A stretch of 64,000 nt of DNA from Candidatus Gastranaerophilales bacterium. GTDB taxonomy: Bacteria > Cyanobacteriota > Vampirovibrionia > Gastranaerophilales > Gastranaerophilaceae. The notes beneath the pieces are model-generated. The model ran no database searches. It was given only the letters and a program-made list of their open reading frames with translations, and had not been told where the DNA came from. The stretch spans positions 1-64,000 of the forward strand of contig CALUTO010000005.1 of assembly GCA_944323735.1 (NCBI GenBank), given 5' to 3'. Positions within the stretch are counted from its first letter, which is position 1; every line of letters starts with the position of its first letter. Below, piece by piece: positions 2,753 to 7,387 of the stretch. The translations under genes were made by a program, and so were the position numbers.

Positions 2753-3652
2753 TTAGAGCCTGTACAAATCCGGATATTTTTCTTTATAGAAATTCTCTAC
2801 TTTGCGAAAAGTATTGTCCAGACGTTTGTCTATATTTGCAAAATCCCTGTCCATTGCAGTAAGGTGATCCTCGAGGATTTGCCTTTCTCTGCTGAGTGTG
2901 TTATATTCATGACCGCTTTTTTCGTGCAAGATTCTTTCTATATCTGATTTTCTTAGATGAATTCTTTTTTGTTCGTCAATCATAGACTGTTTTTCGCCGC
3001 CTATTCCATCAAGCTCGCACAAAAGTTCAAAACGCTGATTTGCAAGATTTCTTTTCTTTTCTATATTTTTAATCAGCTCCTGCTTTTCTGCTGTTTTTTT
3101 ATCAAAACGCCGGAGACGTGCAGGAATACACTCTGTTACCAGTTTTTCGAAATCATCCGGACGTTTTAATTTGCATTGTTCGTGCATTTCAATAAATTTA
3201 GATTTATTTTTATTTATCAACTCAATTTCTTTTTCTTCTGCTTTTATTTTATCCCCGAAATAATTCATTTCACGATATGCATTGTTCGCAAAATTTTTAT
3301 ATCCGTTCTTGTAATTATCTCTTATCCAGCTGAATGGCATTTCCGTATGTATTGTGCACACAGTAAGGTCAATCGCCGACTGCGGAATATCCTCATCTTT
3401 TTCACCGGGGTCAGCTATATATGAATAACATATATAATCAAAGCCTTTGGGATTTCTTGTATATTCATAATCCATAATACGGCCGTCTATTATAAGTTTT
3501 TTATTGTTCATTCCGGCATACTGTGACATTTCATGGAAATAGCCCTTGAAGGAAGGAGCCGTATTTGTAGTGCGGACGGTATTATTATTTTGTTTTTTGT
3601 TAGTTTTGTTTTTTGAAGAAACAGGAAATGTGTTAATTCTTTGTATTTTCAT
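2753..3652 (-). CDS. Hypothetical coiled-coil protein with N-terminal SFKG leader
   Basis: Unrecognised, about 299 residues. It begins MKIQRI, runs through a Lys/Asn/Thr-rich disordered leader, and reaches the motif PSFKG near residue 36. This is the same design as several other proteins in the window. A globular part follows, with 'IDGRIMDYEYTRNPKGFDYICY'-like beta-rich sequence. The second half is charged and helical (many K, E, R, L), predicting coiled coil from about residue 130 to the end. I placed the start at the inner ATG because AGAAGGG sits 9 bases before it; the ATG three codons upstream abuts that site. It lies 73 bases downstream of the AAA+ gene on the same strand and may be co-transcribed with it. 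Confidence 0.7.
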   Translation of the reverse strand: MKIQRINTFPVSSKNKTNKKQNNNTVRTTNTAPSFKGYFHEMSQYAGMNNKKLIIDGRIMDYEYTRNPKGFDYICYSYIADPGEKDEDIPQSAIDLTVCTIHTEMPFSWIRDNYKNGYKNFANNAYREMNYFGDKIKAEEKEIELINKNKSKFIEMHEQCKLKRPDDFEKLVTECIPARLRRFDKKTAEKQELIKNIEKKRNLANQRFELLCELDGIGGEKQSMIDEQKRIHLRKSDIERILHEKSGHEYNTLSRERQILEDHLTAMDRDFANIDKRLDNTFRKVENFYKEKYPDLYRL

Positions 3653-3725
3653 ATTTAACATCCCTTCTGGTTGTATAAAAAATTTTCAGGAGAAGCAGAC
3701 CGGCGGCATTTTGATTTTTCATTTT

Positions 3726-4979
3726 TTATTCCATCATTGCCATATTTTTACCTATTTTCATGCCTATAAGCCGCTCTTCTTCGTCAGGAGTATAATTATA
3801 GCTTTTATTCACCTGATTTTCCTGCCCGTCATTTTCTTCCTGCCGCTTAAGACGTTTTATAACAGCAAGCACATTATCCGTTTCAACAGGAGCGACAAAC
3901 TCGGCACCGTTATTAAAAGTCTTATCCATAGGTTTCAGGTCTTTGCATACCAGTTCAGACACTTTCATAAAGTAGGGCGGGTACAGATTTACACCGTTCA
4001 GTTTACAGAAATTGATAATCTGATCATGGTTTGATTTGTCGTATCTGCCGGCTTTTGCCCAGAAATAGCTCATGACCGCAGACATTTCATTGTCCGCAAT
4101 GTCTCTTACCGGTTTTGCAATGCTTAATCTTGACGGATTAAACACCCAGTCAGGGAGTTCTGCGCCTTTATTGCTCACAGCCATCCACGTAATTCCTCTT
4201 TCGTTGGCGGCAGTCATTTGCAGAGCGAGTTCGGCAAGAACATTGTCGCTGCAATTGTCTACATAATCATCAAAAGATTTTATGTAAATAACTGTATGTT
4301 TGGTGCCGTCCCAGCACTCTGCATTTTCAAAGGTTTCTCTGATATAATTTATCATCTCCTCATCATCTACGGAGTCTGCCGGCTTATTCATTTCTATGGT
4401 ATTGATTTTGAGTTTTTTCTGGCTGGCAACTTCCTGAAAATGCTCATAGAAACATTCGGCCATAAAATTCTTTCCTGAACCGCCGGGGCCGTAGAACAGA
4501 ATGCCTTTCGGAATATTTTTCAGATATGCCTCAACATCTTTACTTTCAGATCTGTCTTTTAGCATTAAAACAATCGGAGAAACAGCATCCTTTATCAAAT
4601 CCAGTTTCTCAAGCGAATACCCGACCACTTTATTCAAACCGGCTTCATTTCCGTCTTTTTTAGCAGGTATACCGCCAAGTTCGACATATTTGTCATATCG
4701 TTCTCTTGCATCACGAAAAGTTATCCCCAGCCTGTCGGACACCATTGCAACATCGCTCGTTACTTTTACCCAGACCTGCTTTATCTGATCTTTGCGCATT
4801 TCTTCTCTGCCGTCATTAAGCCTTTTTTGGAAATATGTAAACATTTCATCAACAAGTGAGCCCTTAAATGACTGTTTGCTAAAATTTATTCCGTCACCGG
4901 AAATATTTTTTGCGGGGATATTTTTATGATTCTGTTTCGAATTATTTGTACTATAAGAAAATACAGGAGAAATTTTCAT
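3726..4979 (-). CDS. AAA+ ATPase with N-terminal SFKG leader
   Basis: A 417-residue protein. Residues 1-40 are a disordered Asn/Lys/Ser-rich leader ending in SFKG (37-40). The AAA+ module follows: Walker A GPGGSGKN near 164-171, a degenerate Walker B (VIYIKSFDD, near 230-238) with Asp-Asp where most members have Asp-Glu, a sensor-1-like SN near 269, and NPSRL near 282, where FtsH/Cdc48-type proteins have the arginine-bearing RPGRF. It should bind ATP and remodel or move a protein substrate; the target is unknown. The start is the ATG with AAGGAG 8 bases before it. A TTG two codons further upstream is less likely. The neighbouring coiled-coil gene carries the same leader. Confidence 0.8.
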   Translation of the reverse strand: MKISPVFSYSTNNSKQNHKNIPAKNISGDGINFSKQSFKGSLVDEMFTYFQKRLNDGREEMRKDQIKQVWVKVTSDVAMVSDRLGITFRDARERYDKYVELGGIPAKKDGNEAGLNKVVGYSLEKLDLIKDAVSPIVLMLKDRSESKDVEAYLKNIPKGILFYGPGGSGKNFMAECFYEHFQEVASQKKLKINTIEMNKPADSVDDEEMINYIRETFENAECWDGTKHTVIYIKSFDDYVDNCSDNVLAELALQMTAANERGITWMAVSNKGAELPDWVFNPSRLSIAKPVRDIADNEMSAVMSYFWAKAGRYDKSNHDQIINFCKLNGVNLYPPYFMKVSELVCKDLKPMDKTFNNGAEFVAPVETDNVLAVIKRLKRQEENDGQENQVNKSYNYTPDEEERLIGMKIGKNMAMME

Positions 4980-5092
4980 ACACAATACTCCTTTTTACAC
5001 ACATATTTTTGTTTATATTAGAACATATTAAAAAATAATAAAAGTTATAATTAGACATACGGGCTAAAATTTTTACAAACTTTAACAGATTT

Positions 5093-5806
5093 CTATAAGT
5101 GTAGCAGTTGCAAAATTCCGTCACACAGAACAAAACGCCCCAGAAGAACAAGTTCACAGTATTTATTCAGGGATTCAACAAAACATTTATTTTCGCAAAA
5201 GCCGCCGGACAGATAAATTTTTTCAGCTCTTCTGGCAAAATTCCACGTATTAAAAGCAATTCCGTGAATAAATTTCGAAACAGCGGCTGCTGAACTTTCA
5301 CCCCGTGCAATATCATCCATAATGCGTTCCAGCCCGAAAATACCGCACGTTATGCTGTACTTTTCCTCCGCAGCCGACAGGTTTTCAGGTTTCAGGTTAT
5401 AAAATTTCATAAGCATTTCTATAGTTGCACCGGTAGAGCTTGCGCAAGCAGTGTTCCAGTCCAAATCTTTAAACTTCCCGTCAACAAACCTGACCCATTT
5501 TGCGTCTCTGCTTCCTAAATCCAGAATGATAGAATTTTCCTCAATATTTTTTACTCCAGAAGAAAGCGCAATAATCTCATTCACATAACTGTCTTTATTA
5601 TCCACAAATTTTTCGGACATGTGCCCTGTCATAGCATCGAATTTCAAATCACAAGTTTTCAAAACAGCGGACGGAAGTATGTAATAATTTTTATTCTCCT
5701 TGCTATATCTCAAATAGTCAGAAAAAATTTGTTTAAGTTCATCTGTATTGTATTCTATTATTTTTGACCAGGTGGTACCTGCGTCTAATACGGTTTTTTT
5801 GTTCAT
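5093..5806 (-). CDS. BadF/HgdC-type ATPase (acyl-CoA dehydratase activase-like)
   Basis: A 237-residue ASKHA-fold ATPase. The phosphate-1 motif is VLDAGTTWSK (6-15). The phosphate-2 region IILDLGSRDAK (93-103) leads to NTACASSTGA (118-127). The adenosine motif IYLSGGF lies near 195. Cys121 and Cys154 occupy the positions of the [4Fe-4S] ligands that bridge the activase dimer in HgdC/BadF proteins. Such proteins spend ATP to push an electron into a partner enzyme. No dehydratase subunits are next to it. Its only partner is the gene it overlaps by ATGA (5803-5806), so the two are translationally coupled. The true substrate is unknown. Confidence 0.75.
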   Translation of the reverse strand: MNKKTVLDAGTTWSKIIEYNTDELKQIFSDYLRYSKENKNYYILPSAVLKTCDLKFDAMTGHMSEKFVDNKDSYVNEIIALSSGVKNIEENSIILDLGSRDAKWVRFVDGKFKDLDWNTACASSTGATIEMLMKFYNLKPENLSAAEEKYSITCGIFGLERIMDDIARGESSAAAVSKFIHGIAFNTWNFARRAEKIYLSGGFCENKCFVESLNKYCELVLLGRFVLCDGILQLLHL

Positions 5807-6519
5807 CTTAGTTTTAAAAAAGCCTCAATTTTTGCTATTGTGGATTTTGTAGCATAATCATCTACATCGATATAAAGCCCGTTATACTTGTCAGCAAGAT
5901 ATTTTGCCAGCTGGGTTTTTGAACAGAAAGACTGTGCGTAAAAAACAGTGGGGACACCGGCATCGACACACATCTCCAGCTCAAGATTAGCAGGACATCC
6001 GGCTTCCACACACCTTGTCCAGCCGTATACATGCGTGTCATCAGGAAACATCTCAAGAATAGAAAGATCATTCGGAGGGACTCCCCAGAAGCCGAAACGT
6101 GGCGGAACTTTTCCGGCTTCTATAGTGCTGCATTTAACAATTCCATCTGTAATCAGTTCAAATTTTTTTCTCAGCGGAAGGTTTGATATGCTTATTTTAA
6201 GCTCATTTTTTACGGATAAATCCTCATATATTGACGTTTGAACCCTAAAGCCGCTATCCTTTAAAACAGCCGCCGCAAACCAGCCGGAATCGCATTTGTC
6301 CTTTCCTATCGGTGCAACAATCATATGCAGCCGGTCTTTTAAATAAAAAGCATTATCTATAATGTTTTTTATGATTTTACAGTATGACTCCGGAAGAATA
6401 TCGGTTTTCGGATAGCCGAAATCAACGTCCAAATCAACAAAATCAAAGCCCTGTTCTTTATATTTTTTTATAATTTCCGGTTCCGGATATCCCCAGAAGC
6501 CTACAATATCCTTAATCAT
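5803..6519 (-). CDS. Unknown GFWG-repeat protein, partner of the activase
   Basis: A 238-residue soluble protein that I do not recognise. The motif GFWG occurs twice, at 7-10 (GFWGYPEPE) and 143-146 (GFWGVPPND), which suggests an internal duplication or two similar binding loops. Cysteines cluster around 170-200 (WTRC, AGCPAN, EMCVD, SFCSK), possible metal or Fe-S ligands. It has no signal peptide or membrane segment. It is the first gene of a two-gene operon, and its stop overlaps the activase start. A strong promoter sits just upstream and there is no ribosome-binding site. It could be the enzyme served by the activase; that is inference from linkage only. Confidence 0.65.
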   Translation of the reverse strand: MIKDIVGFWGYPEPEIIKKYKEQGFDFVDLDVDFGYPKTDILPESYCKIIKNIIDNAFYLKDRLHMIVAPIGKDKCDSGWFAAAVLKDSGFRVQTSIYEDLSVKNELKISISNLPLRKKFELITDGIVKCSTIEAGKVPPRFGFWGVPPNDLSILEMFPDDTHVYGWTRCVEAGCPANLELEMCVDAGVPTVFYAQSFCSKTQLAKYLADKYNGLYIDVDDYATKSTIAKIEAFLKLR

Positions 6520-6528
6520 AAAAAAATT

Positions 6529-6556
6529 ATATTATAAAAATTTTTTATATTGTCAA
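6529..6556 (-). promoter_or_regulatory. Promoter of the GFWG/activase operon, leaderless type
   Basis: Minus strand: a perfect TTGACA -35 (6556-6551), a 16-base spacer and TAATAT -10 (6534-6529). Only 9 bases separate the -10 from the ATG at 6519, so transcription should begin within a few bases of the start codon. Confidence 0.65.
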
Positions 6557-6676: not shown

Positions 6677-7387
6677 CTAAGCAAGAACTTCTCTGTTTGC
6701 ATAAAATTCATCGTCATTTACCTTCAAGGCTTCATCCGCAAATTTTTGCAGGGAATTTGTTTTTTTATTCTTTGTCTCAATTTCAGCTTTAATCTTGTCA
6801 ATATCGTATTCTTTGCACAACTTTTGTTCTTCATCATAAAGTGCTTCACCGATTTTGTAACCTGTTGTGCTTGCAGCAATCGAGCCAATTACGAATAAAA
6901 CACCTTCAAGAATTGAGATGCCGGCTTTGACGTACTTATTGTTAATATTATTCTTTAAATTCATCATAGCTTTTGATTTAAACCCTTCACGCATTAAATG
7001 TTCAACTCCAAACATAGTTCCCATACCACAAAGTTCTTTTTTGACAGCTTTTTCTTTGTTTTCAGCCGTCAAAACACGGTAAGCTGCTGCACCGCAAAGA
7101 AGTACATTTACATTTTCGCTTCCGAATTTTACTACCTTTGCAGCAGTCTCTAATGCCTTGCCGGAATTTGATACGGTTTTCATTGCGCTAACAGCACTTT
7201 GTGCGCCCTTTCCCAGTGAATTGTGTAATTTTGTTGCGCTTTCAAGTGCGTTCTTGCCTGCATTAAAAAGCTGAAATGTTGCAGCTGCACATCTTCCGGT
7301 GTCACCGTTTTGCACCTTGTCTACATTTCTTACTCCAAATAATGCTGATCTAACCATTGCATCAATCATAGCATGCATAACCTTCAC
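6677..7387 (-). CDS. Hypothetical protein with a hydrophobic segment
   Basis: Unrecognised, 236 residues. The first 130 residues are Ala/Gly/Ser/Lys-rich amphipathic helix with repeated small residues (for example 'SLGKGAQSAVSAMKTVSNSG'). A hydrophobic stretch near 165-185 (AGISILEGVLFVIGSIAAS) looks like one membrane helix. The C-terminus is charged. GTG is the likely start because AAGGA lies 7 bases before it; an in-frame ATG lies three codons downstream. It appears monocistronic and has no informative neighbour. Confidence 0.65.
   Translation of the reverse strand: MKVMHAMIDAMVRSALFGVRNVDKVQNGDTGRCAAATFQLFNAGKNALESATKLHNSLGKGAQSAVSAMKTVSNSGKALETAAKVVKFGSENVNVLLCGAAAYRVLTAENKEKAVKKELCGMGTMFGVEHLMREGFKSKAMMNLKNNINNKYVKAGISILEGVLFVIGSIAASTTGYKIGEALYDEEQKLCKEYDIDKIKAEIETKNKKTNSLQKFADEALKVNDDEFYANREVLA

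Follow-up and report, generated by a model that had tools for sequence, protein, structure and literature searches.

Two overlapping genes of a gut bacterium encode an activase and a small dedicated partner that, judged from their sequences and predicted structures, probably form a minimal Fe-S reductase that is driven by ATP and lacks a CoA channel. The genes lie on contig C5 of a 2.06 Mb Candidatus Gastranaerophilales MAG, within a stretch of 64,000 nucleotides (hereafter the window). Gastranaerophilales are a non-photosynthetic gut lineage of the Cyanobacteriota. The activase gene (5093..5806, minus strand) codes for 237 aa of the BadF/HgdC type and the partner gene (5803..6519, minus strand) for 238 aa, a compact two-domain protein with a predicted HGD-D fold. 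The two ORFs share 4 nt, ATGA (5803-5806), and the partner has GFWG motifs at residues 7-10 and 143-146; both ORFs, their overlap and the presence of two such motifs had been described in an earlier note on this DNA. Homologues that are 45-82% identical and free of internal stops occur in several families of the order and in one genome of another class, so both genes are real. Our reading is supported by the computed fold of both proteins, the collinearity of three cysteines with known ligands, the near-obligate co-occurrence of the two genes and their overlap.

Fold of the activase and its partner

Sequence comparison and a predicted model (pLDDT 89.3) confirm the 237-aa protein as an activase of the BadF/HgdC type, with the ASKHA ATPase fold. 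It scores 57 bits against TIGR00241 (acyl-CoA dehydratase activase; cut-off 125) and 24 bits against PF01869 (cut-off 31.5), which the orthologue from a distant genome, G154, passes with 33.9 bits, and phmmer matches it to HgdC (1hux), DCCP-R (7yyl) and HadI. The best Foldseek match of the model is DCCP-R (E 1.2e-12); fold comparison gives Z 18.2-19.4 to known activases, with DCCP-R tied for best at 19.4, and Z <=16.7 to other proteins (pantothenate kinases 16.7). The nucleotide motifs DAGTT, GSRD and SGGF are conserved. Cys121 (codon 5444..5446, minus strand) and Cys154 (codon 5345..5347, minus strand), the predicted ligands of an intersubunit cluster, show no variation across an alignment of 40 sequences and line up with the cysteines of NDKC and SMCTVF, respectively, in E. 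coli YjiL. The earlier statement that the activase keeps both Fe-S cysteines and its nucleotide motifs is thus borne out.

The partner has no sequence match in Pfam, NCBIfam or the PDB. Its AlphaFold2 model, built from 55 aligned relatives (pLDDT 91.7, pTM 0.87), consists of two alpha/beta domains with four parallel strands each that span the whole chain (N-terminal, residues 1-105; C-terminal, 138-238), joined by a linker at about 106-137 that holds one helix. At E<=0.001, Foldseek returned BCR/HAD/DCCP chains with probability 1.00, the sole exception being a dehydrogenase with probability 0.38. In VIA-align the partner reaches Z 13.6 against DCCP (3.9 A, 230 residues aligned), 13.5 against BzdNO and 12.9 against both HAD and MbdNO, all four alignments falling at 3.5-3.9 A. 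Across subunits of DCCP, benzoyl-CoA reductase and 2-hydroxyacyl-CoA dehydratase the range is Z 10.8-13.6 over 228-231 of the 238 residues, and it drops to 6.5 for the next unrelated fold. N-terminal domain, linker and C-terminal domain measure ~105, ~33 and ~101 residues, compared with ~103, ~110 and ~147 in DCCP: the middle helical domain of ~110 residues, which in BzdNO helps to form the CoA channel (PMC11971306), is absent and the ~33-residue linker stands in its place. On the strength of this model, the partner belongs to the BCR/HAD/DCCP superfamily as a divergent member at the level of fold, and is a compact form of the subunits normally served by activases.

This changes the reading of the locus. 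The profile and structure searches proposed in the earlier note gave no sequence family for the partner and a fold that is that of BCR/HAD/DCCP, and the claim that the normal partners are missing does not survive: since the fold matches the subunits that activases serve, the normal partner is present in compact form, with the HgdB/BcrC/DCCP fold and its three cluster cysteines. An activase that, having lost the usual partners, recruited an unrelated protein to make a reductase of a new kind would fit the lack of a sequence-family match, but this is hardly credible, because the protein has the fold and cysteine pattern of those very partners. Matches of the partner to PF01202 (shikimate kinase) and to an alpha-amylase domain (E 0.006-0.2) are weak, short and contradicted by the fold, and we rejected them; no viral fold match was found.

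Very strong sequence conservation, seen without metabolic context, could also mean that the partner is regulatory or non-catalytic, a degenerate HGD-D fold through which the pair senses redox state or oxygen. We consider this very improbable, because the nucleotide motifs and both cluster cysteines of the activase are invariant, as for a working ATPase, and two HGD-D domains account for the whole partner model, which contains no DNA-binding or signalling domain.

Predicted cluster ligands of the partner

The clustered cysteines noted earlier in the partner are borne out in part. Four are conserved among the 55 aligned relatives: Cys47 (codon 6379..6381), Cys76 (6292..6294) and Cys199 (5923..5925) in 55/55 and Cys170 (6010..6012) in 54/55, all on the minus strand; the others, such as C174 and C184, vary. 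The predicted cluster ligands Cys47 (motif LPxxxC), Cys76 (CD motif) and Cys199 (QxFC) lie at the N-ends of helices 48-59, 77-88 and 201-211, respectively, as BzdN Cys73, Cys100 and Cys327 each lie at the N-end of a helix (PMC11971306). In the profile alignment, C47 falls on the cysteine of DCCP LPRNLC, C76 on that of TTCD and C199 on that of QFC, and together they match the cysteine triad that HGD-D proteins conserve and that ligates the cluster in BzdO as Cys95/128/380. Cys170, in VYGWTRC, lines up by eye with DCCP VVGEETC, where BzdN has Cys263 as one of its distal double-cubane ligands. At the positions of BzdN Cys36 and Cys293, the 55 aligned relatives have no conserved cysteine; with these two other distal positions vacant, we expect a single [4Fe-4S] cluster and consider [8Fe-9S] unlikely.

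Sequence profiles point the same way when the halves of the protein are compared separately. The N half matches the N half of HGD-D with P=0.0017, C47 and C76 being in register, and the C half matches the C half with P=3.6e-5, C199 being in register; crossed halves are weaker (P>=0.018). Over its whole length the partner matches HGD-D marginally (hhalign E 0.03-0.08), so its homology to HGD-D rests on the predicted fold and the cysteine register. Global hhalign of the full partner matched nothing, PF06050 has no match in the partner of the window and matches in 3/55 relatives below the cut-off (best E 0.035), and DUF523 (TudS) is absent from the Pfam matches of the partner and its relatives.

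Conservation and context of the pair

Among 146 relative genomes the partner occurs in 68, the activase in 68 and both in 67, so that 67/69 genomes with either gene carry both (Fisher p ~1e-39, a value without phylogenetic correction). In the two single-gene genomes (G091, G106) the gene sits at a contig end. Eight genomes have the genes on different contigs (G027, G041, G061, G068, G070, G075, G087, G102), possibly in G068 only because both lie at contig ends, and the co-occurrence is hence not only a matter of linkage. The conserved pairing that the earlier note proposed to look for is therefore found, and of the two outcomes it had named as fatal to its proposal, a partner from a known family unrelated to redox and a pairing that is not conserved, both were tested for and neither was observed. 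Within genera the pair is patchy, which suggests repeated joint loss or transfer. The best 80 of 178 sequence matches are all at Gastranaerophilales-level similarity, and no relatives of the pair were found in plasmids, phages or viral contigs. One record titled 'uncultured Acinetobacter sp.' (L138) holds a Gastranaerophilales-type locus and is probably a mislabelled MAG.

Outside the class, the pair was found in one of 18 genomes tested (G154), where the genes are adjacent and all four partner cysteines are present. This partner has an additional cysteine near a lost distal-ligand position (GFYGCPP). The copy (L145) lies near cysteine desulfurase (NifS) and IscU-type genes on a contig, C106, of 5.4 kb and 59% G+C, and given so short a contig, contamination or transfer is possible.

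Upstream of the partner gene, a TATAAT -10 box (6526..6531, minus strand) lies 6 nt before the ATG, with a TTGACA box (6551-6556, minus strand) upstream of it in the promoter scan; a leader of 0 nt is expected from this spacing. The scan by itself was not above chance (12 found, 9.0 +/- 3.2 expected). Comparison among relatives is more telling: a TATAAT-like box precedes 41/78 partner genes, 40 times at exactly 6 nt and once at 7, against 2/48 window ORFs of >=200 aa, a comparison set that includes spurious ORFs. The leaderless-type promoter proposed earlier is accordingly credible. The recurrence of the box ahead of the partner gene in roughly half of these relatives (L065-L144; 6520-6535 in the window) implies leaderless transcripts in Gastranaerophilales.

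At other loci the genome encodes a conventional activase of 333 aa, which scores 170 bits against PF01869, and a DUF2229/HGD-D protein of 353 aa (L166:1970-3031 on contig C16; L001:1273-2301 on contig C5, about 78 kb). Almost every Gastranaerophilales genome, with the mini pair or lacking it, encodes a ~340-aa activase and a DUF2229/HGD-D protein of ~350-400 aa (often two consecutive ones), and the mini pair is for this reason a second, separate system. The two share the activase superfamily, a distant HGD-D relationship and the same genome; the conventional proteins are full length and encoded at separate loci, unlike the overlapping mini pair. Elsewhere in the window, a 236-aa protein with no Pfam match (6677-7387) is conserved beside the pair within the genus, and an N-terminal signature ending in PSFKG, QSFKG or similar, a lineage-specific motif, occurs at 2753-3661 and 3726-4985 and also at L166:3343-4353.

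Across 78 loci, no third conserved gene that would name a substrate or a second subunit was found beside the pair. A PF00375 dicarboxylate symporter is near it in 21/78 loci, yet it is nearly universal among the relatives, those lacking the pair included, and this link was rejected. The partner might instead act in electron relay or maturation: as a closed four-Cys [4Fe-4S] protein it would pass the electron of the activase to a third, unlinked metalloprotein. Cys170, which 54/55 relatives and the distant G154 copy share, could occupy the site that is left open in HAD and BzdO, and a cluster closed in this way would make the site electron-transferring rather than catalytic; a partner without a substrate-binding domain and a pair without a conserved metabolic neighbour also agree with such a role. 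However, known members of the superfamily react at the cluster itself (PMC11971306), and we regard a relay as unlikely. Hydrogenase maturation in particular is an unlikely destination for the electron, and a hydrogenase link was rejected, because PF02906, common in the order, was not detected in six pair-bearing genomes (G031, G049, G059, G061, G076, G087).

Known relatives and a proposed mechanism

The preferred reading of the pair as a minimal reductase can be set against several characterised systems. DCCP/DCCP-R (Carboxydothermus hydrogenoformans 6ENO/7YYL; E. coli YjiM/YjiL) resembles it in combining an activase with an adjacent single-gene partner, in the fold of both proteins (Z 13.6 for the partner, 19.4 for the activase), in a short activase (243 aa in DCCP-R, 237 aa here) and in four of the six cluster-cysteine positions of DCCP, which the partner keeps. 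However, DCCP has ~380-420 aa including the middle helical domain, which is lacking in the 238-aa partner, and its six cluster cysteines include three distal-cubane ligands, of which the partner misses two, making an [8Fe-9S] cluster unlikely. We consequently rejected the partner as a DCCP, given four conserved cysteines where six are needed for [8Fe-9S].

The class I benzoyl-CoA reductases, with subunit BzdO, and the 2-hydroxyacyl-CoA dehydratases share with the partner two alpha/beta domains around one cluster, service by an activase and the three-Cys ligation motif LPxxxC, CD and FC. They differ in being made of two unlike subunits and in carrying a helical domain that binds CoA, where the pair has one subunit without such a domain and an extra Cys170. 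Since the middle domain is absent and each pair has a single partner gene, with no conserved gene for another subunit next to it, the partner was likewise rejected as a HAD or BCR.

The 4-thio-UMP desulfidase TudS (DUF523) is also a reduced superfamily member built around a [4Fe-4S] cluster, such as is predicted in the partner; no activase is known for TudS, and its reaction is not known to need one. A partner that acted as a TudS-like sulfur enzyme, with an open cluster iron binding sulfide and the activase only repairing the redox state of the cluster, would have a precedent in TudS, a single-domain relative whose cluster is held by three cysteines (PMC10611767, PMC11971306) and in which the loss of accessory domains has already produced such a function once. 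We consider it improbable, since the TudS reaction is redox-neutral and redox-independent, the partner has two domains where TudS has one, and it is hardly ever found without the activase.

In the mechanism that we propose for the minimal reductase, a dimer of the activase would hold one [4Fe-4S] cluster between its subunits through C121 and C154 of each. ATP would bind in the ASKHA fold, and its hydrolysis would deliver a low-potential electron to the partner, whose two four-stranded alpha/beta domains would hold one [4Fe-4S] cluster between them by C47, C76 and C199; C170 may serve as a fourth cluster ligand or as a substrate-facing residue. We infer the presence and type of the clusters, the ATP-gated electron transfer, the dimer state and the absence of CoA. 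Because the middle helical domain for the CoA channel is missing, a CoA ester is an improbable substrate, and the partner may act on a small compound or on a site of another protein instead. The proposal of a minimal ATP-driven reductase of a new kind thus stands in part: a true activase with a dedicated, conserved, Fe-S-like partner makes a reductase the best reading, and a new kind is not supported, since the fold is known.

In this superfamily, the enzymes whose catabolic role is defined depend on CoA esters as substrates, and for DCCP, the member that works without CoA, no physiological role is known (PMC11971306). A bolder and more tentative suggestion is that the pair may represent a new CoA-independent branch of the ATP-driven radical/reductase superfamily, which would use the smallest two-domain scaffold of the fold and a four-Cys cluster to carry out reactions at very low potential on a free small molecule, or to activate another metalloenzyme reductively. 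With two genes and 475 residues, the mini pair would be the simplest low-potential reductase of this type that runs on ATP, and a test case for the essential parts of the fold. The partner is invisible to current sequence families, and its function would be one carried by well over half of the sampled genomes of Gastranaerophilales, a gut lineage with few characterised enzymes.
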